Translations under genes and position numbers: made by a program
Notes under the pieces: generated by a model
Seen by the model: only the letters and a program-made list of their open reading frames with translations
Told to the model about the DNA's origin: nothing
Database searches by the model: none
Shown here: positions 1 through 20,042 of the stretch, in pieces
How positions within the stretch are numbered: position 1 is the first letter of the stretch
Layout: the number at the start of each line of letters is the position of its first letter
Source: Medicago truncatula
Taxonomy: Eukaryota > Streptophyta > Magnoliopsida > Fabales > Fabaceae
Assembly: GCF_003473485.1 (NCBI RefSeq)
Contig: NC_053046.1
Coordinates: 34,735,332-34,799,331 of the forward strand
Direction: 5' to 3'
Length of the DNA: 64,000 bases

Positions 1-1
1 G

Positions 2-211
2 CGGGGAGGCGGTGAGGGAAGTTTGTTGGAGCGGCAGCGAAAGGAGAGAAGGCTCTTGGTCTTACTTGTCTTTTTCATAGTAATATATTTGATGATTATA
101 ATCAATGTCCATGGCAGTCACAAAAGACCATATCAATGTAGAAACTCCCATTTAATCAATGAATCAGCTGCAGAAACCTTAGTCGGGGAGGATGCAGAAG
201 TAGATGACTGA
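2..211 (+). CDS. Unrecognised open reading frame entering from the left edge
   Basis: An open frame runs from the first bases of the window to a TGA at 209-211. It encodes a basic stretch (ERQRKERR), a hydrophobic segment of about 18 residues that could be one membrane helix, and an acidic tail ending GEDAEVDD. The 5' part lies outside the window, so this could be the last exon of a gene or a chance frame. I recognise no family. The sequence that follows looks like retroelement DNA, which lowers the chance of a real gene. Confidence 0.2.
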   Translation, partial: RGGGEGSLLERQRKERRLLVLLVFFIVIYLMIIINVHGSHKRPYQCRNSHLINESAAETLVGEDAEVDD

Positions 212-324
212 AAATGAGATGCACCTTTAACCATTTAATCACAGCCCTTGAATTTATTTCTGTCACGTGTCACTCATATATGCACTGAATAGGGGTAAAT
301 GGAGCAGGCGTAAATGGAGCAAAG

Positions 325-410
325 ATGGACTCGGGTGTCCGGAGTTCGAACCCCGGCCCCTGTATATAATATGCAATATTTCTACCAACTGAGCTAAGTT
401 CACGGGGATG
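325..410 (-). repeat. tRNA-derived SINE-like sequence
   Basis: Read on the minus strand this has a good pol III A box (TTAGCTCAGTTGGT) and, about 35 bases further on, a B box (GGGTTCGAACTCC). That is the layout of a tRNA head without a proper anticodon arm or acceptor pairing. Such tRNA-derived SINE heads are common in legume genomes. A decayed relative lies at 63330-63405. I cannot define the tail or target-site duplication. Confidence 0.6.
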
Positions 411-559
411 TCTGATAAGTGCTTAAAAGTAACATATTTCATGTGTTAACTTAGGCAAATTAGTGACTTGTTTTGCAAGTTATCTAAGGAAAAGTTACCA
501 TTTGAGTGTATTTTTACCATTTATGCTTTACATGCCTGATTCTACCCAATTTATGCAGG

Positions 560-950
560 AAACGACAAGCAAGGACCAAGAAAGAACCTCCTGAACCAAG
601 AGATGGTCGCTTAAGCGACCTCTTGTTCGCTTAAGCGGACCAGATCCAGAGAGCATCAAGATCTTCGCTTTTCCAGACGCTTGCAGCACGCTTATGAAGA
701 AAAGAGCTGCACGCTTAAGCGACATGTGGCACGCTTAAGCGAAGTTTGTCCAGTGAGTAACAGATTTGCACGCTTTCAGCTCGCTTCTCACACGCTTAAG
801 CGAAGTTCATCAGATTCATATGGATAAGGCACACGTGGCAACTCCCAATTGGCCAAAGGAAGATATTGTGGTAGCTCGCTTAAGCGACCTTAGCACGCTT
901 AAGCGTGCTGGCACGAATTCTGCCAATTTAAATAGTTTTTCCTTCTCTTT
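560..950. repeat. Cluster of CGCTTAAGCG palindromes
   Basis: Seven exact copies of the 10-base palindrome CGCTTAAGCG occur within about 300 bases (near 608, 628, 712, 731, 793, 877 and 896), mostly preceded by CA or T. Between them the sequence is unrelated. No reading frame of note crosses the region. It is probably part of an LTR retrotransposon's untranslated or LTR region, but no LTR end or coding domain is visible to prove this. Confidence 0.55.
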
Positions 951-2132
951 CTAAATTAATATATTACATTTTTATTGATATTTTCTGGTTTTTAGAGAGA
1001 GACTAGGGCTTTTCTAGAGAGAGAAACACAAAGCAAGGTAGTTAGGAGTAGATTCAAGCCAAGATTTGTTGAGACATCATGGATCTTGTCATGGAATCTT
1101 CACCCTTTCTTCATCCTTTGCAAAGCTATCATAGACATATGTAGCTACATCTCCTCTTGTAGTTTTGAGGTACTCAAACAAGCTATTATGTAATCTTTTG
1201 ATCTTTTAATATATGGTTCTAGCAATTTATTCAATATTGTTGTTATTCTTGCTTTTATTGTTTTATTGAGATTCAAAATGATATGGACACATACTTTTGA
1301 ATCTAGAAATAGAATAACAATCTATCTTAAGTTATCACTCTAGACATGGATGTTAATATTTGATAATCACTTTTAATCTAGAACTTAATGCTTTTGGGTA
1401 ATTTAATCGGTTGGGAAATCGACGATTAAACTACCCAATCGACTTTGTGATCGTTTAAATGTTTGGGAAATCGATGTTTAAACGATCCCTTAGAAATAAC
1501 GATATCATTTGGACACGAATGATATTGTCGAGTGATTGTGATAATATAGTTTAAAAAGCTAGAATCCGTTAATCGATCGAGAGATTGCAGCAGTTACGCT
1601 TGATTGATGTCTCTGACCGCAAGCGGAATAGCCCTATCTCTTATCGTTTTACTTTTATGTCGATTAGGAAAATAGTTTTACACAAACAAACAATTTATAC
1701 CCAAACACTTAACGTGACAAATATTGTGAAAATGCTTATGAAATACGCAACTCTTTGTGGACACGATCCTATTATACTTACGTGTAAATAGTTTTATGAG
1801 AGGTAAAAATCCTTCATCAATGTCTAGAATGATTGGTTTATCCTTAAAATAATGTCTGTAGATTTATTATATTTAACACTATTATATAAATGCTAATTAC
1901 CATTTGTCCAAAAAAATAATCAATGTTAATCATTAACAAATTTTACAAACATATATCTTAACCCAACAACACATGGATGATTAAAGCTAGTAAGAAATAG
2001 GAAAAAATTTAGTTTAAAATTGAACACATTGAAAGACCACATCCATTTTCCTTTATGAATGAAGAGATAATTCCAATCTTAATATTCTTTAACGATCCAT
2101 GTACATATGTTGTCAAAAAACATATCAATAAA
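951..2132. other. Non-coding, probable degraded retroelement sequence
   Basis: AT-rich sequence without a credible reading frame. At about 1395-1490 there are short internal repeats (a GGGAAATCGA motif twice, each next to TTAAAC-type words). A block around 1590-1640 (GACCGCAAGCGGAATAG) has the look of legume LTR-element DNA. I see no LTR boundary, primer-binding site or pol domain, so the family is unassigned. Confidence 0.3.
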
Positions 2133-2141
2133 TCTTACAAT

Positions 2142-2187
2142 GGATTTCGCCCAATTTTGGCGTCTTCCTCCCTTTCCAGCGAAATCC
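2142..2187. repeat. 9-base perfect inverted repeat near the putative Helitron 5' end
   Basis: GGATTTCGC (2142-2150) is exactly mirrored by GCGAAATCC (2179-2187) with a 28-base spacer. It lies about 10 bases inside the proposed TC terminus and could form a stem-loop. Canonical plant Helitrons have a defined hairpin only at the 3' end, so a role here is speculative. Confidence 0.5.
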
Positions 2188-2574
2188 GCCCTTCTCCGCG
2201 TTTGGCGCTGAACTCTGTCAGTTTTCTGGTTTCTGTGGATTTGTAGCTGTGTTCCGCCTCAGCTATGATTTTTGGATTTTTGTGGGGTTTGCAGGGCTCG
2301 TCGCCGTTTGGGTACAGGTTTGGTCAGGTTTTCTGTAAAGGCGTTGTCCTTTTGTTCAGAGTTTTCAAAAATATCACACATTCGTCGGATTACAGCATTT
2401 TCCCCCTCTTTTCATTTCTTCAAAAGTTTAATTTCATTTTTTCATTATTAATTTCATTCTCAAAACAATTGAATTGTTCTGTCGCTCACTTGCTACAAAT
2501 ACCCCCTTTTGTGTTTCGTTTTTCACATTCCAAACCACCACCAAATTTTTTTGTTGCTTTCAGAAATTTTGCTG

Positions 2575-5337
2575 ATGGAGAAGCTTTTTCATTCCGTGTC
2601 TGAGATTGCCCTCGGTGAGGATGGATGGAAAATCAAGGTTCGTGTTTTGAGGCTTTGGGAGGTGCCCTCTTTTCTCAAGCCAGATCAGACAAACTCCCTT
2701 GAGATGGTTCTTATCGATGAGATGGTTCGTTGCTCTTTTTGCAGACCCATCTGTATTGAATAATTTTTTTTACATTTCTTCTTCTATTGATGTTATGTTC
2801 CATTGTTTTGCTTCTTTAATTTCGCAGGGTACCAAGATCCATGCCAGTGTGAGGAAGCAACTTTTTTATGTTTTCCAAAGCAAGTTGAGCGAGGGAAAGG
2901 TCTATGAGATGTCCTGTTTCTCTGTTGCTCCAAGTGTTGGTTCTTATCGCACCACCCTACACCCATACAAGATTGTTTTCCAGATGACAACCAAGGTTCA
3001 AGCTTGTGAGGGTGCTTCTATTCCTTCGTTGGGAATTTCTCTCTGTAAGATTGCTGATGTCTGCCAGCACACTTCCGATCATGACTACTTAGTTGGTAAT
3101 TAATCTGTGTTTGCATCTGTTTGTTTATGAAGTTATTTATACCCCTTTTTTTCCGGTTGTGATTGGTCTATTTCCATGTTATTTTGTAGATGTTCTTGGT
3201 TTTATGACTGGAATCTCTGTTGAGAGAGAGTATGTAAGGGATGGTAAGGTCACCAAGATGGTTATTTTTGAGATTACTGATGCAAGGTGATCCATGTTTC
3301 CATTTTTGTTTGACAAAAAAAAAACCACCTTTCATGTATTTGTTCTTCTTAACTCATATCTTCTAACCATAACCTCATATTTTCTCATTTGTGATTGTTA
3401 GTGGTAAGTGTGAGTGTGCCCTTTTTGGCCAATACGTTGACACTTTGAACAAACTAATGGGTAAGTCTGGTGGTGGGATGCCTATAATCTTGGTGCAGTT
3501 TGCCAAGGTCAAGATATTCAGAGGTATTTTAGCGGTTGATCCAGCTGTCTTTTAGTTGTTTTTAATTTACTGTTTGAATGTTTATGTTTGTGTCTAATTT
3601 GGTGTTGGTCATTGATTTTTTTACCCCAGACAAGGCATCCCTTCAGAATGTAATGAACACCACTCGGATTTTGATAAATCCTCCCATAGAGCAGGCTGAC
3701 CAGATCAGGAAGAGGTTGTTTTTCCTATTTCTCATTTATGTTTTCTTAATTAAAACATCCTTTTTTTGTGTGTTGTTGATCGCTTATGTTTATTGTTTCT
3801 ATGTTTCTATTCTGTAGATTCTTTGGTTCTGTTGCATGCTTCGCATTGTTTTGATTGAGTTTCTCATTGTCTTGAATCTATTCATTTTTTGTATCATATT
3901 TTTTCCCAGTGTTACTTTTGGTAGTATGGATGTCTCATCTGTTCCCAGGATTGGGGCACGTTCAAAGGTATCCCTTGAGGAGGACTTTCTTCGTACCTTC
4001 CCCAAAAAGACTCTTGAACAATTGCACTCAACCTTTGAGGATGGAGTGTTTGTTGTTTATGCTACAATTGGTGGGCTGGTTGACCATGAAGATTGGTGGT
4101 ATCCAGCCTGTAAATGCCATAGGAGTGTGTCTGCTGATTCTGGTGCGTTTTACTGTAAGGGGTGTGCCAAGCATGTTTTTCAGATGGTCCCAAGGTATTG
4201 TTTTTGTTGGAATGTTTTCCTTTATCTATATTTTTTACCCAATATGAAATTATCTGCATTCATTCAGTGTTTTTGAGTTGTCTTTGTTCAGGTTCAGGGT
4301 TAAGGTTAATGTCAGCGACGCAACCAATGTTGGTGTTTTTGTTGTCTTCGACGGTGATATGCAGAATTTGCTCAACACACCCTGCAGTAGCCTTGTGTCT
4401 GTTGCAAAGGTACATGTTGATGTTGAGTCCTCTTCCCTTCCACTAATATTATTTTAACGCACTGCCCATTTAGTTTCTGTTTTGAAGTGCTGCAATTTAT
4501 TTCTTTTGAAAATATTGTTTTTTTGAAGGCTGAAAATGCTGGACATTATCCACCTGAGTTTGAAAAGTTGAAAGGTAAGAAGATGTTGTTCAAGGTTGAG
4601 AAGTGTACTTCTTCAAGCATTTTCTTTGACGGTTCCTTTAGGGTGAAGAGGGTTTGTGATGATCCTGCTATAATTCAGTCGTTCCATTTTGTTGGTGGTC
4701 AATGTACTCCGTCAAAGGTTTGGTTACCCTTCTCCTTTGTTTACTTTAGGATGTAATTAGGATGTGATATATGAGAAAGCTTGGTTATTTTTGATTATTT
4801 ATTTACTCCAATTTTGATCTTCTGTCTTTAGTCGGTTGTCAAGTCCTTTGCTGTTGTAACCCCTCCTGCCGTGCCTCATTGATGGAGACGAGTCTGGTTC
4901 GTCTGATGTGTTTGTCTCCGACCTGATTGTCACCCCAGCCAGTGTGATGTCTGACTCTTCTAAGGTGGTTTTCATTCACCATCATCCTTTCTTTTATATG
5001 CTACTCTAATGGAGGATGTCCGTTTCGTTGGTTCTTATTTTCATTTTATGTGGCTTATTTAATTTAATTTAATGTCTTTAAACCTTATATTTGGTAGGAA
5101 TTTACTGCTGATCTCCCAAAGGATGTCTACCATCTCGATGATGAAGATGTCGTCGTTCGTTCGTTTGTCCATGCCGCCTTTGGTGAAGGTTGTTCCAGGG
5201 CAGTTGCTTCTGCTGGTGAATCGGATATGCGTTCCACCTCTGTTGGTGTGAAGAGGAAACTAGAGGGTACCTTTGTTGAGATTGATTCTGATGATGAGCC
5301 ATTGTCTTTGAGATATGGCAAGTTGAAGCAAGGTTGA
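2575..5337 (+). pseudogene. Helitron-encoded RPA70-like single-strand DNA-binding protein, one frameshift
   Basis: Ten exons with GT-AG introns: 2575-2724, 2828-3095, 3190-3286, 3402-3523, 3630-3714, 3910-4194, 4292-4409, 4529-4717, 4832-4964, 5098-5337. The product starts MEKLFHSVSEIA and follows RPA large-subunit order: N-terminal OB-fold (DUF223-like), a second OB-fold, then a DBD-C domain with a zinc ribbon (C308, C310, C323, C326 in WWYPACKCH...YCKGC). RPA binds single-stranded DNA; in a Helitron it would coat the displaced strand during rolling-circle replication. All phases agree through exon 8. Exon 9 is 133 nt, one base over a multiple of three: the frame ends at a TGA (4880-4882, about 454 aa), while the next frame continues through exon 9 into exon 10 and would give about 562 aa. 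The simplest reading is a single-base insertion around 4858-4880 that removes the acidic C-terminal tail but leaves all OB-folds. A sequencing error is possible. Confidence 0.8.
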
Positions 5338-7632
5338 GCTCTTGATTGACCACCTGCACCTTCTGAACAATATAAATCTAATGTTTTGTAATAATTGGGT
5401 TCTTCCACCCACTGGACAAGTTTGTTTTATCATCCTGCTTTTGTTTGTGCATGTTGGCTCTCTTATGTAAGATACTTGCTATTTGCTATGCATGGGTTTA
5501 GATCCTAGGTTTCATGTTCCTTTGCCCTGTGTTTCTTCTGTTGGAATTAATATATCCATCTCTTGTGGATTACTATCTTTATTGATTATTATATAAAATC
5601 TCATGTAAGACTCTTGCATCATTTTTGTTGTATCCCTCCATCTTGCAGTTATTAATTCCTCCGATTCTGTTTTTGTTATCTAAGGTTGATTTGTATCGTT
5701 CCGAAAATTATAATTATTGTATTTGTAAATCGCAATCGTAAAAGTAAAAATTGCATTAAAGTGGTTGTATAGTAGGAAAATTATGCGGAAAACTTTTTGA
5801 CCATGCAAAGTCACTCTCCCTCTCTTGCATTGCCGAAAATCTTGGGTACGCAGGTCATCACCTCACCAACGGTTTTCCATTGCTGATTCGTCACATTCTA
5901 TTGTTTTAGTGCATAACATTGTCTTAATACGCAACGTTGGCTAAAAAAAATTGGAGAAAAAATTATTTGTTAATTTATCTAGCATGCAAAATGTATGAGT
6001 CTCATGGAGAGAGAGATAGAGAGAGAGATTCATGTAGAGAGTATGCATATGTTAAAACAACATTGATTAATTTGGACTGAAAGCAAGACTTTAAATACTG
6101 CCCTTGGGAAAGGAAAGGGGGTTCGGGAGAAAGAATAAAAGGGTGCGAATAGCGAATTTCCTTTTATTTTTGTTTAAGTATGTGGCTCTTGAAGCCATTA
6201 GCTGTCTGGTCCTTTTGTTGGGTTTTTTCCTGATCCGTGGTTCATCAACCCGTATTTGTTTATTCTTATTTTGCACAGGACATTTCATCCAAATTTCAGT
6301 TTTCTTCTTTTCTTTTTGCTGCTGGAGTGGTGATCCAGTCCATTTTCATTGCACTGTTGTGGCTGGATTCTCTTCCCATTCCGCGTGCAGGTTTCAATCC
6401 CATGTTAGCTAACTTTGACAATTACCTGCGACCTGGTTTGTGATATCTATTAACCCCCTTTTTTTTTAGGCATTCGAGTTTGTAATTTGCACTCATTTTT
6501 ATTATGCATTCTCACCTAATGATTTGTACTGTTGGCTTCAATTTATCGTGTGCTTTTGTTCCACCCACCATGCCGCCTGAGTTTTACATTGTTTTTGCAT
6601 TCAGCGCGCCCTCAACAATGCCTTTGTTTCGTTGTTGTTCTTTCCTTTTGTCTGAAATTATGCCGTTCAGTTATTTTGTTTTTATGTTTCTGAATATTTA
6701 TCTCCTGATTTTCGTATTTTATGGTATTGTATCAAAAGAATATTGGTTATTGATTTGTTTGGCTTGGTTTGTGGGTTTTAATCATATCTAATTGGATAAC
6801 CCCATTATGAATCCATTTTATTTTTCATCATTTATGAGTTACTTTAATTTCAATCTTCTTATTTTGTTCATTGTTTTCAATCTACATTTCAATAAAATTT
6901 GTGTGTTTGATCGCTTAAAAATTTGTATTTGTATTTTGCACACTGGTGGTGGATGGCACACATGGTGTAGCATTCTTCTTTTGATTATGGTTTTGAATTA
7001 TAATGTATCATTTATTTGTATTATTGTTGTGTTTATGCAGTTAGTTGTTAAGCTCTCCAGTTGTTTTCTCATATTATTTATACCATTTGGTGGCATTTTG
7101 GTTATTATTATGAATTTAAGGGTTCGATTTGTTGTTGTTTACTTTTCCAATCTCTGCTGTACTATTCTGCAGAATTTGGATTTTGTGACATAGGAAATCC
7201 ATTCATTTAATGCTTCTTATTTTGTGTAAGTTATTCTCTTCCTGCCGGCTGCACTCTGCCTCCTCTTCTTTTTTCATATGTCCATCGGTTGTATTTTTGC
7301 TCAGTTAGTCAGAAATTTGTGTGGCTGCATATAGTTGTGTCATTGTCCTTTATATGGTATAGAGTATAGAATAATCTGTGTTCTATTTTAGTTGGTACTG
7401 GGTAATCTACTTTGCCTTTTTATCTATGTTCTGCATGTGAGACAAAATGTACTTCCCTTTTTACCTTTACAGCTAATTCATTTTTTTCCCAATGTGGCTA
7501 TTGTTGCTCACGTGTTTATATCCCAAGTTCAAATATTTTTTTTCCCTTTTTCCCTCCATGGTCTATTATTTTTACTACTTATAGGCATTCTTTGGTCCTT
7601 ATGTTTTGCTACTTCTTTGCTGCTGTCCAAAT
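5338..7632 (+). other. Helitron spacer between RPA and Rep/helicase genes
   Basis: T-rich + strand with no conserved coding potential. A (GA)n-rich patch lies at 6006-6030. A TATA-like TTTAAATA at about 6091 sits upstream of the transposase and could belong to its promoter, with a long leader (possibly intron-bearing) to the ATG at 7633. The frames found between 6100 and 7600 are hydrophobic, T-rich artefacts without family resemblance. Confidence 0.5.
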
Positions 7633-10600
7633 ATGTCTAGGTTGTCTGATATTGTTGGCTTGGATGAATTTATAGGTCAAAATCCTATTATTAGCTTTGC
7701 TGAATTTCTTTCTTCCATGGATGATGGATTGTTTATTGTTGTTGCTTGCTATTTTAGCGTTGATGAGGGTGTCGATAAATGGATTGATCTCCATTCATCC
7801 ACACCGGAGCCTAGGTTGACTGCAAACTTTGTTTTTATTATATTATTTTTGGTTTTTCATTATTTTTATTATGTTTCCTTTTTATTGGATATTGGATTGT
7901 CATATTATTAAATGTTTGCCTTTTTTTATTTATTTTACTTATGTCAACAATAGGTTTAGGCTTAGTTTGAATGTTGGTGATTTTGATAATGAGGCATCCT
8001 TCATTATGCGTGATGATGTTGTTAGGCAGCTTGCACCTTCCACCTACAAGTTATTGGTTGATACGGTGATTATTTTGTCTTACTTCTTGGTTTTTTCTTT
8101 GTTTTTATCTAACATCTGATCATGCATGTTTAATCTCCATTGTAGCCCGAAGCTTCTTCTCTGTATCCAGTTGAGCTTGATTTGTTATTTGCTGAACCTA
8201 TGATTTTTGAGGTTTTGAAAAAACCAAATGGATCTCCTTCTGGTCCTGTTAGCTATGACGTCCTTCGTTTGTTTACCCATGACCGCTTGCTGGATGTGTT
8301 CTATGGTCCCAAAAACTATAGCCCTGTTTTTATTATTCAGGTGTTCCATCGTCCTTTTCATTTCCTGGATTATTTGTGTCATTTTACCTGCTGTGTTGTT
8401 TACATTTTTTATTCTTATGATTTCTACTCAGTACAAGCATTTTTGTTGCGTTGATTGCAATGTGATGATGGAACTTCGCGAGCGCTCACGTAGGGACTCT
8501 TCTACTTTGTCCCATGATGTTTCAATGTGTTGTATGAAGGGAAAGATAACTTTGCCTTATATGATTGAACCTCCTCCCTTGCTCCGTCAACTTTTCAATG
8601 GTCTTCATCCTAGGAGTGGACACTTTTTGGCAAATATTCGATCGTATAACAATTTGTTCTCTTTTACCTCGATGGGTGGAAAGATCGAAACCGAAATTAA
8701 CCGTGGTCAGGGTCCTCCTCACTTCGTTATTTCCGGGCAGAATTATCATCGCATTGGTTGTTTGCTCCCCGCTGATGGAGAGAGGCCAAAGTTTTGTCAG
8801 CTTTATATTTATGACACTGAAAATGAGCTTGCTAATCGGATGGCGCATTTCAGGTAAGAACGACAAATAATTATACCTGGCCGTTGAAAATTATTTATGA
8901 ATTTCAATTTTCTTGGTTGTTGTCTTGGTTACTTTTGAATGTTGATGTACATTGTCCTTCTGTAGTGGTCGTTCTGATGAAAGCAATCTCGATTCCTCTC
9001 TGATTGAAGAATTGCTATCTTTGATGGATGAGCATAATAAGTTGGTTAAGAGTTTTAGGATGGTCCGTGACTTTTGTGTGCAGAATGATAACGTTCCTGT
9101 TCGTTTGAGGTTGTTTAGGAATAGAAATTTTGATGCTAGAACCTACAACGTACCTGATGTTGATGAAATCGCTGCATTGATAGTTGGGGACTTTGAAGAT
9201 TCTGAAGATGGCAGGGATATTGTTGTGAAGGAGAAAGGTGGTTTTCTCCAACGTATTCATGAAACTCACAGCAAGTACATTCCTCTTCAGTATCCATTGC
9301 TCTTCCCGTTTGGCGAGGATCAGTACCAAGAACATATTGAACGCAACGAGTTGACCTCTACTGGATCTGTTAAGAAAAGAATTCGTATCAGTGTTCGTGA
9401 GTTTGTTGCCTATCGTTTACAGGAGAGGACTATTGAAGACTCTGTTTTATTTTCCGGCAAGCGGCTTTTCCAGCAATTTATTGTTGATATGTATTCTATG
9501 ATTGAGTCGCAACGACTGTCTTGGGTTAGGCAAAACCAAAGTAAGATACGATCAGGTTTCCTGAAGGGTCTTGAGGAGGCGGTTGGTCGCGGTGATATTG
9601 ATGCATCTTCAATTGGCTCTAGGGTTGTTCTTCCTGCGTCATTCACCGGTGGTCGCAGATATATGTTCAACAACTATCAGGACGCACAGGCTCTGTGCAA
9701 GAGATATGGATACCCAGATCTGTTCCTGACCATCACCTGCAATCCAAAATGGGAAGAGATACAACGCCATTTATCAAGATCTGGCAACTACGCATCTTAT
9801 AGACCTGATATATGTTGTAGGGTGTTTCACCTTAAGCTGCAGGAGATGATGGCTGATTTTCGAAAGGGCCAGTATTTTGGAAAGGTTATGGCAAGTAAGA
9901 TGAATTTCATGATTATTTCGTATTATGCCTTTTGCCGTTAAAATTTGTTCTATTGGTATATGTTTCTTGTCCTTACAGATTATTATATATGGTTTTTGTA
10001 ATGTGGATCTTTCTTCTTTGTTAGGCGTATACACAATTGAATTCCAAAAACGCGGGTTGCCTCATGCACATATTCTTTTATGGCTCGACAAAAAGGACAA
10101 GCTTGATTCCATTTCCTCCATTGATTCCGTCATCAGTGCTAAGTTACCTGATCATAGATTGTATCCGAAGTTATATGCTGCTGTCACTGGCTTCATGGTC
10201 CATGGCCCCTGTGGTTTTGCGAGACCTTACTCGCCGTGCATGAAGGATCGTCGCTGTTCTAAATTTTACCCAAAAAAGTTCGTTTCAAGGACCTCCTTTG
10301 ATGAGAGTGGCTATCCTATTTATAGGCGTCGTGATCTTGGTATTGTTGTAATGAAGAAGGATGTTCAACTGGATAATCGCAGTGTTGTTCCGTACAATCC
10401 TACCTTGATTATGAAGTACCAGGCACATGTGAACATTGAATTATGTAATAGATCAAATTGCATAAAATATCTGTTCAAGTATATCACCAAGGGTGTTGAT
10501 CGTGTCACTGCTTCTGTCGAGACTGGTGGTCAAGGTGATGTAGATGAAATCCAGCAATACTACGATTGTAGGTATTTATCCCCGTGTGAGTCCATATGGA

Positions 10601-12993
10601 GGATTTTTGCCTTTGAGATTCATAGTAGATGGCCACCTGTTCAGAGGCTTACCTTCCATCTTCATGATGGCCAGAGGGTCATCTTTGATGATGAAGCCGA
10701 TCTTGAGGATGTATTGGCTTTCAACAAAGAAAGGAATACAATGTTTCTTGCCTGGATGGATGCCAATAAGGAATTTCCATCCGGTCGTTCTCTTACATAT
10801 ACGCAATATCCTGGGATGTTCGTTTTTGATGATCGAAAACGTTCATGGCATCCACGTCGGAGAGGTGTTTCTGTTGGACGTCTGACCTTCGTTCCTCCAA
10901 GTAATCGTGAGTTATACTATTTAAGGTTACTCCTCAATCGTCAGACAGGCTGCACTTCCTTTGAAGATATTCGTACTGTTGAAGGAATTGTATATGATAC
11001 CTGCAGAGAGGCATGTGCTGCCCTTGGATTGCTTGCTGATGACCGACAGTTTATTGATGCAATCAACGAGGTTGCACTTGATTCATCCGGTCACTTTGTT
11101 CGGAAGATATTTGCAAATTTGCTTCTATCTTCGTCCTTAGGTGATCCATTTGCTGCTTGGCAACTTACCTGGGAAGCTTTGGCTGATGGAATTCTCTATG
11201 ATAGGCGTCGATTCTTAAATTCACCAGGTTCATCCCTCATGATTATTTTAATCATTCAATTGTCATGTGACGCATTTAGGTCAACTATCATGTGTTTTTT
11301 CTAACGGGTTTCAAACCTTTGCTTTTTCTTAGATTTGATTATTTCGGATGAGGATTTGAAGCAGCTTTGTTTGGTTGAAATAGACAAGCTTCTTAGGCTA
11401 AATGGGAAGACCCTCGATGATTTTGAATCCATGCCTAAGTTATTGTCCACTGTTGTTTATGCCTTTGATAATGTTTTGCTGGCCAACGAATTGGGTTATG
11501 ATCAAGATGAAATGTCAATGAGACATGCTGAATTTTTTTCCAGACTCAATGATGGTCAGCTCTCTGCTTATAATCAGATTGTTGATTCTGTTGATAATGG
11601 ACTGGGTCGAATGTTTTTTGTTTATGGTTATGGAGGAACAGGGAAGACTTATCTTTGGAATGCCCTTTCTTTTCGATTTCGCTCTGAGGGGAAGATTGTA
11701 ATCAATGTTGCATCAAGTGGAATTGCTTCTCTTTTGTTGCCAGGTGGTAAGACTGCACATTCACAGTTTGCAATACCCTTGGTTGTGCTCGAGGACTCGT
11801 GTTGTCTAATCGAGAAGGATGGCAAGAAGGCTCAGCTGTTAACCATGGCTAGCCTAATTATATGGGATGAGGCTCCCATGATTAATCGGTTGGCATTCGA
11901 GGCATTTGATAGAACTTTGCGTGATGTCATGAATAATATTGTTGATGGTGCCTTGGATATCCCTTTCGGTGGGAAGACTATTGTATTCGGTGGGGATTTT
12001 CGTCAAATACTTCCTGTCGTTCCTAAGGGGAACCGTGCTGATGTTGTTCATGCCACCATCAATTCATCGCCTTTGTGGTCCCACTGCACTGTCCTGAGGC
12101 TTACGCAAAACATGAGACTTCAATCATCAGCTGATGCGGAACAAACCGATATGTTGAGGCAGTTTGCAGATTGGATTTTATCCATTGGTGATGGGAAGAT
12201 TGGTGAAGCGCGTGACGGTGAATTCGTGGTTGATATTCCTCATGATCTTTTGCTTGAAAATTCTGGCGATCCGATCAATGATATTGTTCGTTCAACGTAC
12301 CCTAATTTGGTGAATAATTTGTCTCATGAAAACTTTTTCCATGATCGTGCAATTCTTGTGCCCACTCTTGAGTTGGTCGAGAAGGTTAACGACTACATCA
12401 TGGTCATGCTTCCTGGAGATGAGAAGGAATATTTGAGCTGTGATTCTGTTTGTAAGTGTGATGATGACATAGGGGTTGATCACCGTTGGATCACTACGGA
12501 GTTCTTGAACGATATCAAATGCTCTGGTATGCCAAATCATAGATTGATCTTGAAGGTTGGTGTTCCTGTTATGTTGCTTCGCAACGTTGATCAATCGGCT
12601 GGTCTGTGCAATGGTACCCGTTTAACTGTCATTTCATTGGGCAAAAATGTCATATGTGCGCGTATTATTGGTGGTTTGCATGATGGCGAAGTTGCCTACA
12701 TACCTCGGATGAATCTCATACCATCTGGTGCCAATGTGTCTATTACATTTGAACGTCGACAATTTCCTTTGGTGGTTTCTTTTGCAATGACTATAAATAA
12801 GAGTCAGGGTCAGACTTTGTCCCATGTTGGTCTCTATCTCCCGCGACCTGTTTTTACTCATGGCCAGTTATATGTGGCTGTCTCTAGGGTTACAAGCAGG
12901 GGTGGATTGAAGATTTTGATCACGGACGAAAACGGTCAGGGGTCATCATCAACTGTCAATGTTGTCTATGAGGAGGTTTTTCAGAGGATATGA
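7633..12993 (+). CDS. Helitron transposase: RPA-like OB-fold, HUH Rep and PIF1-type helicase
   Basis: Seven exons join without frameshift or stop: 7633-7814, 7954-8065, 8146-8340, 8432-8853, 8966-9894, 10025-11227, 11333-12993, giving 1567 aa. Residues about 1-163 form an RPA DBD-C-like OB-fold without zinc-ribbon cysteines. Residues from about 164 are the Helitron N-domain ([29 protein letters not shown]). The Rep domain has the HUH motif [10 protein letters not shown] (H627, H629) and the paired catalytic tyrosines in YLFKYITKG (Y762, Y766). The helicase has Walker A GYGGTGKT (about 1113-1120), Walker B IIWDEAP (about 1193), [10 protein letters not shown] and a C-terminal TINKSQGQT...VAVSR motif. 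Known role: nicking and joining DNA ends and unwinding during rolling-circle transposition. The first ATG in frame is at 7633. The OB-fold exons could instead be a separate small gene, but exon 3 to exon 4 keeps phase 0 and good splice sites. No inactivating change is visible. Confidence 0.9.
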
Positions 12994-14676
12994 TGTCAGT
13001 TCCAACTATTCGTAAGGTGTGTGCGAGATATTTACCGTTTTATAGTTATCTATTTCTGGAAATCAGTTACAAATTTTATTATATGTTTGATTCTCCCATT
13101 AATATGGTGTCTTTCAAATGCAGGTATTATATGCAGTTTTTTAGATTCCCGGTGTTCTACTTTGCTATGTCTTTCCTGTTTCTTGATGAATCCTTTGCTG
13201 TACACGCACCTGTGCTGTTGGAATAATGCAGTGGACTTGCTTGCTGTCTCGCCATTTTCCCTCATAGTATTATCCATTTTGTTGTTCTGATCATGTTGTT
13301 CAATTATCATTATAAGTAAACAATTTGTTTGTATCATGTTGAATGTTTACCAAGTTTGTATGTAACTGTATTCAATTCACAGCCTTTTGCTTGGTGGTTA
13401 TTTGTTTTCGAAGGATCACAGTCTTTTCTTCCAATTTCATTTATAACTTCTTCAATATTTTATTTTAAAAATCTTAAATTTTGTTAATTATGTAGAAAAT
13501 TCTAGGACTGTGAATATTTGTTTTGGTTTGTAAAGAGAAGTAGCCAAACACATGGAGCGTTATTGTTTTGCAATATAAATAATTCGTATTTGAGTAATAA
13601 CTATATTGGAGATTTTAGGTTGCATACATTTAAAGGTACTTTAAGTTTTTGGTTTTTATCAAAGCCAACATTTAAGTTTAAAAAGTCGTTAATAAGTTTT
13701 AGGTTTCAATTGTTCCAAACAATTTATTTTAAATCGAGAGTATTTTCAACCAATATCTTTTAGAGGATGATGAATTTGATTATGATAATAACAACAAATA
13801 GCATTATCAATCATAGTGTAAGCCTCCATTTGTCTTTTGCATAGAATGATTATATAAGCTTCTTTTTGGCAATGATATTCCATCATTCTTTTGTTTCCTT
13901 CCACTTTGTATGTGCATTTCCGTTCTTTGTATTTACTTCCAACTTCTGCTGTTTCCAAACTCAACAAGTTAGTTTTATTTTTCGTTTTCATTCCTCATAT
14001 GCTTACTTATTTCAAACCAAAAGCTTTTATAAAATTAGGAATTGAAGAATTTTCTATCGATGGTTAAATTCAAGGTATAACATCTTGATGAATTTATTAA
14101 TAGAAAGTTACTTTAATTTATTCATACCGGCAAAAAACATTTTCTTTAACTATTAATTTAAATAGTAGGTATACCGGTACATTTAAATATATTGAGTGTA
14201 TCATATAATTTGTCTTTTATTCATCATAACTATTGATTTATAGTTACAATACTTTCAATAGTTTGCGTTTTCATCGATATGGTATTTAGATCAAAAGATT
14301 TACCGAATACTAATCATCTATAATTATTCTTTTTTTTTTTAACAAAATGATTAAGTTCCTTGCCTGTAAGTTTCTGTTATAAATCCATTATGTTTCATCC
14401 TTCAAAGAATTTTATATTAGTTTTGTGTTAGCTAATGTTGATTATTTGATTTGATTGTCTATTTACACACCTTAATCTTAATTTACACCTTAGTGTGGGC
14501 CATTTTTTTCATTTTTAAATCCGGTTTTCAAGTTTCATTGGCCCACATTTGTTGTGAAGCTGTACTTGGTCGCTTTCAATTTTGGTTTTGTCTATTTGTA
14601 TTCACTTTCTATAAGCCGTGTGGTTCCTTTGTCTTCTACTTTTCCGCTTTTGTCGCCGACTGTTCCTTTTGTCTCC
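12994..14676 (+). other. Helitron spacer between Rep/helicase and B3 genes
   Basis: T-rich sequence holding the 3' untranslated region of the transposase gene and the promoter/leader of the B3-like gene. I see no conserved reading frame, tRNA or obvious inserted element. CT-rich sequence immediately before 14677 is typical of a plant leader. Confidence 0.45.
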
Positions 14677-16032
14677 ATGGCTGCACCTCCCAACAAGTGA
14701 GTGTTATTTTTTATTTCTCTTTCTGCATCGGTTACGATTTTTTCTCCTAAAGGAATGTCTTTTTCGCCGTCTTTTTCCATTTTTAGACATGCATTTGTTT
14801 ATTTTATTATTTTCGCCTGGATTTTCGCCGATTGTGATTTTTTTGTCTTCAGATGATTATTATAGACCAGGTTTAATATTGTTATGGCTTTAACATGTTT
14901 TTGTGGGCTGTCTCTTGATCCTCCAAAAACCCTAATTCTTTCTGTGTTGCATGTTTAGTGTGGACCTTCCTGAGGGTGGTAACGACGCTGAGAGGACCTT
15001 CGAGACTGTTGTTGTTCCTGATGTTGTGGGTGGCTAATCTTTGTTCAGTTTTGTTATATCCCTTTTGCATGTTTTTTATTTTTGACTTGAGTTTCAATTT
15101 CAGGACGAGATACATGTTCCGATGCTTTTTGTCTCCAGGTGGAGATCTGTTTTGGCCTCTCAGAGATATGGATGGATCAAGGATCCTGCTGGTAACTATA
15201 TTCGTATTGATTTGTCTAAGATTGTTACTGAGAATTTGATACCCGGGGGCCTGATGATTTCCCGCACCTGTGGATTTGCGGAACCCCAAAGGGTTGTTTT
15301 GTTCTATCAGACTTTTGATAATCAGTTTAATATGCGGATAGTTGATGATCGGGGTTTGGATATTCCTTACTTTGGTTTTCATTATCCGATAAATCACCAT
15401 GTCAGAAGAGTTGCTGATCCTTCTTACGTTTCGCCTAAGTCTTTCATCTCTGTTGTGGATTCTCCAAATGATGATGGTGAGGTTGGATTACCCATTCCTT
15501 TTGAGATGTTCGGGGAGTTCGTGGCTGTTGAGGATGTTGGACATGAGGCTGGAAATACTGTTGTCAATGGCCCGTATCAGATTCCTGAAAATGATGAACC
15601 TGTTCATATCCCCGCCGTTGATGGTGAGCCAGAGGAGTACATATGGACTCTAAAGGTGACTCAGGCTGTTGCTGATGGCAGAAGTGTTATGGTCAGTTTT
15701 TTTATCTGTGTGTTGCTTATCTTTTGGTTTATTTGAATGCTTTACACTTACTTACATCCCTTTTTTCCTCTTTCTAGCATTTTCCTAGGTATGTGATTGA
15801 TAATTTTGAATTCTCTGTTGGAAATGAGATTGATGTCCTTGATGATGCTTCTGGGGAAATAGTTAGTTGTAGGCTGAAGACTTTCACCAAGCCATCTGGT
15901 TATGTCATGAAGTATCTTTCAGGAGGTTGGCACCAATATGTTAGATCCAAGGAGTTGAACGTTGGCGATCGCATTTTGTTTGGGGTTGTGAATCCGGTCA
16001 TGGATGTTGTCTTTCGCATCCATCGTCAGTAA
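14677..16032 (+). CDS. B3-like DNA-binding protein carried in the Helitron
   Basis: Four exons keep one frame: 14677-14696, 14959-15025, 15104-15691, 15778-16032, encoding 309 aa. The first exon is only 20 nt (MAAPPN) and is supported by a good GTGAGT donor. The C-terminal ~100 residues (from IWTLKVTQA at about residue 207) fit a plant B3 fold: FPRYVIDNF, a DASGEIVSCRLK strand, GGWHQYVRSKELNVGDRILF, then VVFRIHRQ and stop. The middle part (RIVDDRGLDIPYFGFHYP) may be a second, degenerate B3-like half. B3 domains bind DNA in plant transcription factors. What this one does for the transposon is unknown: it may be captured host sequence or an accessory protein. No stop or frameshift suggests selection or recent capture. 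The exon 2 donor (15025) is the least certain junction. Confidence 0.75.
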
Positions 16033-16894
16033 AGTTTGTGTTGCTCTCTCTTTGTTGGATATTTAGTGTTGCTGAAGCCTTATCCCCCATGTTGTGTGCT
16101 AGGTAATGAACCTTTGTCTTTGTTTGTCGAATAACCCTGTTTGTGTATTGCTTTTCCTGTTTTTGAAGTTTTTTGTAACTTAAGACACCGTCAGACAAGC
16201 TTTGTGTAATGATCTTTTAATATCTATGTGTATTTGTTTGTTATGTTTATGTTATTGATTTCAATTATTCAATTGAAGGTCAATGTGATTTGTTTGTATT
16301 TCTTTTGTTGTGGTGATATTGTTTGGTCTATAATAGTTTGCATTTTTAGAAACGTGTATGTGTATTAATAATCTTTAAAAGTTTATTATGGTAAAAAAAA
16401 AATCACATGTTACATAAGAGATTAGACTGGTTTGTTTATTGTTGACAAATGTTAGTCGTAGTAATTTTTTTTTTTTGTTAGTTTTTGTTTTGCAAAATAT
16501 TCCAGTAGTTGTGGTCATCAACATAATAAATATTTTATTTGTAAGTGTTAATAAATCCTTGCATAGGCGTATTTGTTTTGATATATTTTCATAATAGGTA
16601 ACAACTTTGATATTAATTTTTTCATTTCTGTTATAGTAATTAAGGAACAAACGATCATCACATGTAATAGTCGTGTCACTGTAATATCCTTGATACTGAA
16701 TGGTCACTGATTAAAAAACTTTTTCATTTTTCCTCTCTTTCGTATTGAAGCTTGCATATGTCGTTTATTTTGAATTAATACATTAAAAATGAAATTAATG
16801 CGGACGAGTGTGGTGTTTGCAGGGTGAAATTTTGTTTCATTTCCAATTTGCGATGATAATCGGTTAATTTTTTATATTCCCAATGAATAATCGG
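16033..16894 (+). other. Helitron 3' non-coding region
   Basis: 3' untranslated region of the B3-like gene and T/A-rich subterminal sequence. No coding potential is seen. Confidence 0.45.
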
Positions 16895-16923
16895 CCCGTG
16901 CATCGCCACGGGTCACACACTAG
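16895..16923 (+). other. Helitron 3' terminus: hairpin and CTAG
   Basis: Stem CCCGTG, loop CATCGC, stem CACGGG, then TCACACA and terminal CTAG, followed by T at 16924. This matches the CTRR terminus and short subterminal hairpin that act as the rolling-circle stop signal in Helitrons. Confidence 0.9.
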
Positions 16924-17288
16924 TTTACGAACATGGTAACAATTACATGAACCGTACAAATATAGAAATAATAGATACATGAAAGTTGCCTCAATAGACT
17001 CCCATGACGTTGTTTTCATATATACAATAATAACACATGCACACCTTTTCAATATCCATAGTTAAGGGTTTACTCATGAAAAACCTGAAAAATAACATAA
17101 AGTAAATTTGACTATAGTAACACCAACTTATAAGTTGAAGATTATCTTAAATTAAAAAAAAAAAAATATTAACTGATCAATATGAAGTATATATTAGATG
17201 AAATACTATAAACAAGGTATGTAAAAAGGGTGAAGCCATCCCTATAAATGAATATAGTATAATGGATAGGAAAAATATACAAAAAACA

Positions 17289-17370
17289 GTGGACGTGCCG
17301 GAGTGGTTATCGGGCATGACTAGAAATCATGTGGGCTTTGCCCGCGCAGGTTCGAATCCTGCCGTCCACG
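17289..17370 (+). tRNA. tRNA-Ser (anticodon AGA)
   Basis: The acceptor arms GTGGACG and CGTCCAC pair fully with discriminator G. Anticodon loop CTAGAAA gives AGA (serine). A long variable arm (TGGGCTTTGCCCG) marks a class II tRNA, and the T arm is GCAGG/TTCGAAT/CCTGC. No intron. It appears intact and is followed by a T run at 17371-17374, a possible pol III stop. Confidence 0.95.
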
Positions 17371-17426
17371 TTTTCATTTTTATTTTTATTATTACTTTTA
17401 AAAAAAGAAAATAAAAATAACAGAAA

Positions 17427-17450
17427 CGCTAGAAGGAGGGATTGAACCTC

Positions 17451-17483
<33 letters not shown>

Positions 17484-17500
17484 AACTGAGCTATTCCAGC
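17427..17500 (-). tRNA. tRNA-Asn (anticodon GTT)
   Basis: On the minus strand it starts GCTGGAA and ends TTCTAGC plus discriminator G, with one G-T wobble in the acceptor stem. The A box is TAGCTCAGTTGG, the anticodon loop CTGTTAA gives GTT (asparagine), and the T arm contains GGTTCAATCC. No intron. It converges on the tRNA-Ser gene 56 bases away. Confidence 0.95.
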
Positions 17501-20042
17501 TTTCGTTGTTATTCAACAACTTAAAAAGTATATAAACCAAATTTAATGGTTAACTAATAATGGCATAAAAATTTGAATTAAATATTTTATTAGTTGAAAA
17601 AGATTACATATTGTTGAATTAATTAAATCCCACCATCCTATTAGTTTGTAGTAGCAACATGGTTTGAATTCCTTAGGGAGTGATACAATAACATCTTTAG
17701 GGCAACGTTTAGCATGGAGAAATTGGCATATTTCTCCATCTTAGGTCAATTTAACAAGGGCCATTGATTTAATGTTAACAGAGATCAATGGATAAGATTG
17801 CTCTTAAATGTTTACCTTGAATTTGGATGGATTTTAATTTTAAATAACTGATGTACCATTATTTGAAATTGTACAAATCACCTAGGTTTGATATATTTAT
17901 AAATTTGGAACATGTTGAAAACAGTGTTGTTTTACTTTCCGTTACCAAATTATTATTATTTTTTTTATCAAAATCAATATTTCATTTTCTATATTATTTA
18001 GAAAAACTCGATAAATGTTAGTATTTAAATTAATATTTCCTCATTCGTTCGGTTTGAAGTCAGAATCACTACTTTAACGGTTAACTCAAACTAATAACTC
18101 TCTATTCACTTTGTTTATTATAAATTTTTATATTGATATCATTTATTTGAGTTGTTATTTGACGTAAACATGATATAGTTTAAAATTAATTTTTTAATTA
18201 CTTGTGTTTTTCAGGAATATAGTTGAACTTGTTCATTTTCTTTGGCATGTGGTAGAATTTGCCATGAACTTCTTGATTTTATTTTTATAGTTTTTATTTC
18301 AAAAACAAGGTAAATTTAGTATTATTAATGATGACCTTAATTGAAATCTTTTCTTTTTTTGAGGAGATAAATGAAATAAAATCTGAAGTATGAAAATGTT
18401 AGTCACATTATTTGGTCTATATTTTTATATTAAGTTTTTTTTTTTTTTTTTTTTTTTATTGAGAATGGGGTTGAAAAAGGTTAGCATGAGTGTTAAAAAA
18501 ATATTGTATCTTCCTCCGATAAAGAAATAAACAAATTAATTAGGTTCAAATTATAATTTTGAGTCAGGGGTACAAATTGAAATATAAAAGAATATGGAGT
18601 ACAACTCATTACAAGTAAAACAAAATTGATCTAAGATGGTGAAATTTGACAATTTGTCCATGTTAAAACTTGCCCATCTTTAGGGTCTTGAATCAAGTTA
18701 AGAGAGCTTTATATTTAACAATATTATACTTACAATGATAAAAATGCATGAAGATGAAAAAAAAACAGAGGTAAAACAATTATCCAATTATTGGAATATT
18801 CAAGATCTTCGGTTTAAAGAAAATGGTTAGAAGTCTATGATAAAGCTATAATTTGACTTTATTAAACAAGCATTACCTACCACAATTTATTTCTTTTCGG
18901 GTGCAAATTACCTGCCACAATTAGTTCGACATAATAGTCAAGCTCAATGGCCCCATGATAGTGAAGAGGTTATTTTATTTTCTGTGTAGTAAAATGGAAT
19001 GAAGTGTATGATGAAGATTAATACATTCACCACATGTTTTACTTTTAGTCACGGAAAATTTGTTTTCTATAATAACTGAATCTATGTAAATATACAACTT
19101 TTTGTTTTTAATCTTTGTTTTAGATCATGTAATAGTTTTCGATATTGGAATTGGTCTGGGGAATTGATAATCTGATGTTCAAACCTCGGCCACCAAAAAA
19201 AAACCATTTCAACATTCTAGTATAGATTTTACATAAGATTTACAACAGTAACTTCAACTTCTTTTTTTAGAATTAAAAGTAATATTTGTTTCCAAAGATT
19301 AGATTGGATTTTGCATATTATTTATTTTCCTAGGACCACAATTGAATCTTAAAAAAATTACAAAAAGCCACGTGGATAGGCAGTAGATAGAACCTTGGAT
19401 GTGAGAACAAGTAATGACGTGGAGTTTCACTTCACTCCATATATCTATAGTCTCTATCCCATTATGCCCCCATAGCCCATAACTTAATTTTGTGTTTTTC
19501 TTCCTTGTTGGCATTTATAGGGCCACATCCCCACTTTGTGGTTCTCAATTTTAGTCTCAAAATAATGATACAAATATATATTAAATCAATATATATAGTC
19601 TTTAGTTCATACCTATTTTCATTTACTTCCGAAAAAAGTTGAAAAACTAACTATGCCTTTGTTCCACAGGTTAGTATTTAGCTTTCATTTCAGTTATATT
19701 ATATAGTTTAGTTTTCTTAACTTTAGCATTATTATATGATGATGATGAATTTATATTCTATAGTTTAATTTTCAACTTCAAATTTTGAGATCTTTGTAGT
19801 CACTCCTGTATTGATGATGTTAAGTTTCTAGCTATGTATTTCAAGAACTTGTGTTTACCTTATCTAATTTAGTTTTTTATACATCTAATATTGTAAATTG
19901 TGACTACTGATCAGAAAATTAGGGTAATGACCATATGTTACTTTGAAATAGGAAATTAACTTTTGAGGGATGTAGAGAAGCTAATTGAGCTATGCAATGC
20001 TTTAAATTGATGATTCTTAAAAGAAATGTTTGGATAAGGTTG
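17501..20042. other. Intergenic, AT-rich
   Basis: No supported gene. It contains a long T run near 18431-18458 and other homopolymer runs. Nothing resembling a protein domain is seen on either strand. The last part may hold promoter or 5' untranslated sequence of the gene that starts at 20576. Confidence 0.4.

Follow-up and report, generated by a model that had tools for sequence, protein, structure and literature searches.

A zinc-ribbon-less OB-fold derived from a Helitron RPA precedes, and may be fused to, a RepHel transposase in Medicago truncatula

Does a rolling-circle transposase of M. truncatula carry at its N-terminus an OB-fold derived from the RPA proteins of plant Helitrons, or do two genes lie side by side at this locus? 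The question is raised by a gene at positions 7633–12995 of a 64,000-nucleotide stretch of DNA (GCF_003473485.1, contig NC_053046.1, positions 34,735,332–34,799,331 of the forward strand), which was analysed as a whole and is referred to here as the window. The plus-strand cargo of the region 2575–16923 is composed of an RPA gene, the gene at 7633–12995, a B3-like gene and a Helitron 3′ end (Table 1). The conceptual protein of the RPA gene is identical over 517 residues to a public M. truncatula protein (P0001). At 16895–16923 we read by eye the hairpin, the CTRR sequence and the T after the end that belong to an autonomous plant Helitron; the search pattern for this end was written after the site had been read, and a simple hairpin scan did not list the site. 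No 5′ end (TC after A) was recognised within 1501–2700 with a small set of motifs. A tRNA-Ser (aga) at 17289–17370 and a tRNA-Asn (gtt) at 17427–17500 are located a few hundred bases past the 3′ end.

Table 1. Features of the Helitron region, in positions of the window
Feature	Position	Strand	Description
Helitron RPA gene	2575–5337	+	9 exons, 517 aa; DUF223, DBD-B region, Rep_fac-A_C with zinc ribbon, KRK-bearing tail
OB exon 1	7633–7814	+	N-terminal part of a DBD-C-like OB-fold, without zinc ribbon; donor phase 2 after PR
OB exon 2	7954–8065	+	Donor phase 0
OB exon 3	8146–8340	+	YPVELD...IFEVLK...SYDVLRLF; donor phase 0, same position as the donor of stand-alone OB copies
Intron	8341–8431	+	91 bp, between OB exon 3 and RepHel
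RepHel exon 4	8432–8853	+	Begins YKHFCCVDC; native YxDxG-like sequence before CxxC absent
RepHel exons 5–7	8966–12995	+	8966–9894, 10025–11227, 11333–12995; Helitron_like_N and PIF1; open to stop
B3-domain-like gene	15122–16032	+	Exons at least 15122–15691 and 15778–16032; Pfam B3 23.0 bits, under the 30.1 cut-off
Helitron 3′ end	16895–16923	+	CCCGTG/CACGGG hairpin and CTAG, then T; hairpin read by eye

Conceptual splicing of all seven exons of the gene at 7633–12995 yields a single stop-free frame of 1,567 residues. The first three exons (the OB exons) have GT-AG borders and phases 2, 0 and 0. The remaining four correspond to the RepHel transposase, with Pfam scores of 206 bits for Helitron_like_N and 292 bits for PIF1. 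This part contains the sequence RGLPHAH (10051–10071), a 10-residue motif (10465–10494) and a Walker A motif (11626–11649), which we take to be the marks of the HUH nuclease, the catalytic tyrosines and the PIF1 helicase; these are the RepHel components of an autonomous plant Helitron. A scan of viral contigs with RepHel exon 6 gave 13 pattern matches and no relatives. B3-like sequences recur in legume Helitrons: besides the gene located 3′ of RepHel in the window element, we identified one in the stretch at 28.41 Mb of C8 (L014:3393–3635, E 5e-9) and a weak one at L054:2766–2864 (E 0.002), and the Lotus RepHel models P0136 and P0142 contain PF02362 (B3).

An earlier note on this DNA had likened the first three exons to the third OB-fold of RPA70 (DBD-C) without its zinc-ribbon cysteines, and had proposed a profile search and a structure prediction as checks. 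On the evidence of sequence comparison this likeness is borne out, and exons 1–3 (7633–8340) are a copy of the DBD-C of a Helitron RPA that lacks the zinc ribbon. When the OB profile was aligned by hhalign with a profile of Helitron-RPA DBD-C (from up to 60 RPAs), the match had a probability of 99.6% and an E-value of 1.6e-23 over 144 columns, and it was confined to DBD-C, the probabilities for DBD-A and DBD-B being 0.1–0.2% only. The only large gap in the alignment, of 21 residues, falls at the zinc ribbon, and the ribbon cysteines are absent from exons 1–3. Pairwise comparison with the DBD-C of the window RPA gave a Smith–Waterman score of 105, whereas none of 2,000 shuffles exceeded 69 (z 16.6); the controls with DBD-A and DBD-B gave z-scores of 0.8 and 1.4. 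BLASTP, as a single comparison of the same two regions, gave an E-value of 1e-10 with 26% identity over 164 columns. At E<1e-5, a profile made from six OB copies matched 85 of 120 RPA proteins listed, usually (among the 70 matches displayed) in two pieces on either side of the zinc ribbon, and the best E-value in a control with 600 shuffled RPAs was 0.027.

Compared with RPA70 DBD-C as represented by PF08646, the domain in the window has a collinear OB core but differs in the loss of the zinc ribbon and in being missed by the Pfam model. Pfam alone gave no match to residues 1–163 at E≤10, PF08646 included, and PF08646 did not match the OB part of a Trifolium relative, P0047. Searching the PDB with phmmer gave no match at E≤10, nor did residues 1–170 of the full protein among 202 candidate proteins of 862–2,742 residues. 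The Pfam and PDB sequence searches probably miss the domain because it has diverged (25–26% identity) and has no cysteines. For P0047, an AlphaFold prediction gave a pLDDT that is below 50 from residue 344 onwards, the OB part included. Pairwise dN/dS among four OB copies ranged from 0.25 to 0.53, ratios that are rough since dS was 0.84–1.70 in five of the six pairs, with a dS of 0.10 in the sixth (ratio 0.53); they suggest that the OB family therefore encoded a protein under constraint. That exons 1–3 contain no OB-fold, their similarity being due to chance or to gene prediction, is hardly credible and is refuted as far as sequence can refute it: the absent Pfam and PDB matches and the uninformative P0047 model would agree with such a reading, but the DBD-C match with its gap at the zinc ribbon, the dN/dS below 1 and the presence of at least nine genomic copies, with the same exon layout in all those read except one without intron 1 (L013), speak against it.

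Where the domain came from was addressed by its introns and by phylogeny. The earlier note had reported that two introns have the same positions and phases in the OB exons and in the RPA gene of the element, and had read this as a sign that part of that gene was duplicated within the element. The exon borders confirm that the intron after PR is of phase 2 in both genes (4194/4292 in the RPA gene, at PR|F) and that the next one is of phase 0 in both (4409/4529, before AENAGHYPPE in the RPA gene). As proof of duplication within the element, these positions were nevertheless rejected: both recur in all four other Helitron RPAs that we read by eye (L011, L051, L053 and L014), with PK|F in L014 and SR|Y in L053 in place of PR|F at the first intron. 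Since they are present in other Helitron RPAs, the introns mark Helitron-RPA ancestry in general and not copying within the element.

We calculated a tree from 60 regions and approximately 100 columns, in which the RPA rows were those matching the OB profile (start 40–62, end ≥140, i-E <1e-7), and a second tree without the four long-branched rows P0088, P0108, P0219 and P0231; the short L013 copy was left out. The six OB copies formed one group in the two trees (99/93 and 100/93). Their sister in both (100/99) was P0028, an RPA-type protein of Trifolium pratense that has a zinc ribbon, and in the first tree OB and P0028 were nested among legume RPAs of the P0028 kind. The second half of the P0028 DBD-C also scored 87 bits with the OB profile, far above the other displayed RPAs with the exception of the OB copy in P0047. 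Placement of OB outside all other RPA rows was not rejected (p-AU 0.152), and a clade uniting OB with the window RPA was (p-AU 0.025). A duplication of the DBD-C part of the element's own RPA gene is thus very improbable: it would explain the identical intron positions and phases, but these are also found in other Helitron RPAs, the clade that it calls for is rejected in favour of the grouping with P0028, and the OB family occurs at seven or more Medicago places and in Trifolium. As judged from these comparisons, the OB family predates the window element. Its likeliest source would be a P0028-like legume Helitron RPA, before the split of Medicago and Trifolium, because both genera have an OB copy.

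In the Medicago genome, at least 20 exon matches represent at least nine OB copies at at least seven places: the window (on C5), one head-to-head pair each on C6 and C7, three single copies on C8 and one on C1. Outside the window, in six displayed Medicago copies and in Trifolium, OB reads as a small gene of its own. Exon 3 of these six copies (both strands of L009 and of L010, L011 and L012), whose borders were set by eye, leads into a charged tail and not into RepHel; some of the tails contain stops or were seen in part. Stops within exons 1–3 were found in three of the six, on the minus strand of L009 and on both strands of L010. RepHel exon 4 was looked for in the four 10-kb loci L009–L012 and is absent from them. 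Trifolium P0047 is annotated as an RPA protein that ends in an OB copy whose tail bears KKRK, and probably represents two adjoining genes merged by annotation.

Some of these places show further features. The two members of each head-to-head pair (L009:3880–5328 and L010:3908–5203; C6 and C7) have approximately 100 bp between their starts, as if they had one common promoter region. The OB copy at L013:6561–6836 reads in one frame straight from exon 1 into exon 2. At L009:7538–9900, at a distance of approximately 2.2 kb from the paired OB genes, an RPA fragment precedes RepHel sequence of residues 947 and above, in which no Rep part is detectable; L009 was cut at 9901. The stretch at 28.41 Mb of C8 has the order B3, OB, RPA, RepHel and Helitron-like 3′ end, and the distance of 7.5 kb between its OB and RepHel makes it the next nearest such pair after the window.

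The arrangement in the window was found once in the genome. OB abuts RepHel exon 4 at one of its seven places, the window, among the matches listed. A genome DNA search with 8146–8853 returned seven matches, of which one spans the junction, that is, the joined sequence was found once; the matches of RepHel relatives begin no earlier than base 363 of this query, and those of OB relatives extend no further than base 180. In front of CxxC, the nearest Trifolium RepHel proteins (62–65% identity) have a basic N-terminus of approximately 100 residues. The native N-termini of six Trifolium RepHel proteins matched 28 of 29 other RepHel loci by tblastn at E≤0.01 (the exception being L041), these 29 being a subset of at least 88 other matches listed. 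The same search, with query pieces that are weakly conserved, did not find this N-terminus at the window locus or within window positions 1–20000. A YLDIGDM-like sequence commonly precedes CxxC in RepHel relatives, and the window has 13 different residues there. A strict motif for the native start had matches in 20 of 30 RepHel loci, but at least those in L026 and L028 lie, by eye, somewhere other than at this start, and we therefore prefer the tblastn count. By a simple pattern it is kept in 75 of 120 listed plant RepHel proteins, several of the remaining 45 being truncated or beginning, as annotated, further downstream.

The tail exon of OB is likewise not detectable within window positions 1–20000 (best E 1.6). 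Because both this tail and the native RepHel start are undetectable, the facing ends of the two partners would both have been lost, and we infer a deletion as the simplest account of the junction. Whether the acceptor at 8431 is OB's own or derived from RepHel is left ambiguous by the alignments of both kinds.

Whether the two parts are made as one protein was considered next to the possibility of two genes. The OB exons do join the Rep N-domain in an open frame, as the earlier note had stated, but the frame alone says little about a fusion because an open in-frame join would also result from 5 of the 10 AGs lying 60–400 bp 3′ of the donor. In favour of a fusion are the undetected native RepHel start, the 163 open codons of the OB frame, where three of the six other displayed copies have stops, a donor that lies where its relatives have theirs, and exon borders and phase that fit. 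The last three points argue against the reading that an OB gene, truncated and decaying, merely came to lie next to a RepHel translated from an internal ATG near CxxC after the deletion. This reading can draw on in-frame ATGs at 8417 and 8465, on a RepHel frame that is open from 8219, on annotated RepHel models that start just before CxxC (e.g., P0132, P0134, P0138 and P0140) and on the other OB copies read, which are separate genes; we give it a distinct minority chance. In the protein database, no protein of 862–2,742 residues had the fused N-terminus at E≤10. A fusion is plausible and would be specific to the window copy, and we predict the 1,567-residue OB–RepHel product with about an even chance of its being made. 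As a whole, the locus is best explained by a deletion that brought a mini-RPA gene into frame with a RepHel core and so gave an OB-tagged transposase, an explanation that we consider moderately probable.

The steps of this preferred explanation can be set out as follows. The OB family would go back to a Helitron RPA gene of which the 3′ half was used: DBD-A, DBD-B and the zinc ribbon would have been lost and the OB core kept, which in the stand-alone copies is followed by the charged tail. In the window element, the OB tail exon and the beginning of the transposase gene would then have gone in a deletion. With splicing across 8340/8432, the OB exons would continue in frame at the CxxC of the RepHel core, so that the 1,567-residue transposase would bear an OB tag at its N-terminus. 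In RPA70, DBD-C has a role both in binding of single-stranded DNA and in assembly of the trimer. An OB-fold without the zinc ribbon could still bind DNA or pair with the RPA of the element. On RepHel it would precede the CxxC module and the HUH nuclease, at the place where the basic N-terminus was, and in replacing that N-terminus it might hold single-stranded DNA beside the Rep and helicase parts or contact the element's RPA. More tentatively, and in our estimate slightly short of an even chance, the locus may represent a rolling-circle transposase in which an RPA-derived OB-fold took the place of the native N-terminus as a single-strand-binding or RPA-docking module of its own, obtained from an unnamed family of zinc-less mini-RPAs of legume Helitrons.

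To our knowledge, the role of RPA in plant Helitrons is not settled. An RPA-derived domain on the transposase, if true, would offer a direct way to ask whether this role lies in binding of single-stranded DNA, in contact with RepHel or in both. The stand-alone zinc-less mini-RPA family, found beside Helitron genes at several places, would present a transposon that builds protein parts from its own genes. The literature searched yielded no description of zinc-less DBD-C genes forming a family in Helitrons.

Several known or predicted proteins invite comparison with the window gene. DBD-C is located N-terminal to RepHel in predicted proteins from Vicia villosa (P0231), Ipomoea nil (P0219), Deinandra (P0233) and Bidens (P0232), the first three of which were rescanned with Pfam. 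In contrast to the window gene, all four keep, as read by eye, a native YxDxG-like..CxxC start and the zinc-ribbon cysteines, and gene prediction may have merged two genes in each. RepHel proteins can exceed 2,000 residues if domains such as RPA are present, according to the accessible text of a review (PMC6431247). The remark in the earlier note that no fusion was known to have been described needs a qualifier, in view of the maize Helitrons in the accessible text of Dong 2011 (PMC3288121): ZmhelA1 has a putative RPA remnant of very low similarity before Rep, and in ZmhelB1 and ZmhelB2 RPA follows the helicase within one ORF. These elements resemble the window gene in having RPA-derived sequence 5′ of Rep or within the RepHel ORF, whereas neither a zinc-less DBD-C paralog nor loss of the native N-terminus is described in that text. 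Separate RPA genes, termed PHRPA, are well known in plant Helitrons, as set out in the accessible text of Roffler et al. 2015 (PMC4683698), and the window's own RPA gene resembles one of these. The OB domain has DBD-C homology and intron positions in common with PHRPA but differs in the lack of DBD-A, DBD-B and the zinc ribbon, and in preceding RepHel rather than forming part of a separate RPA gene.
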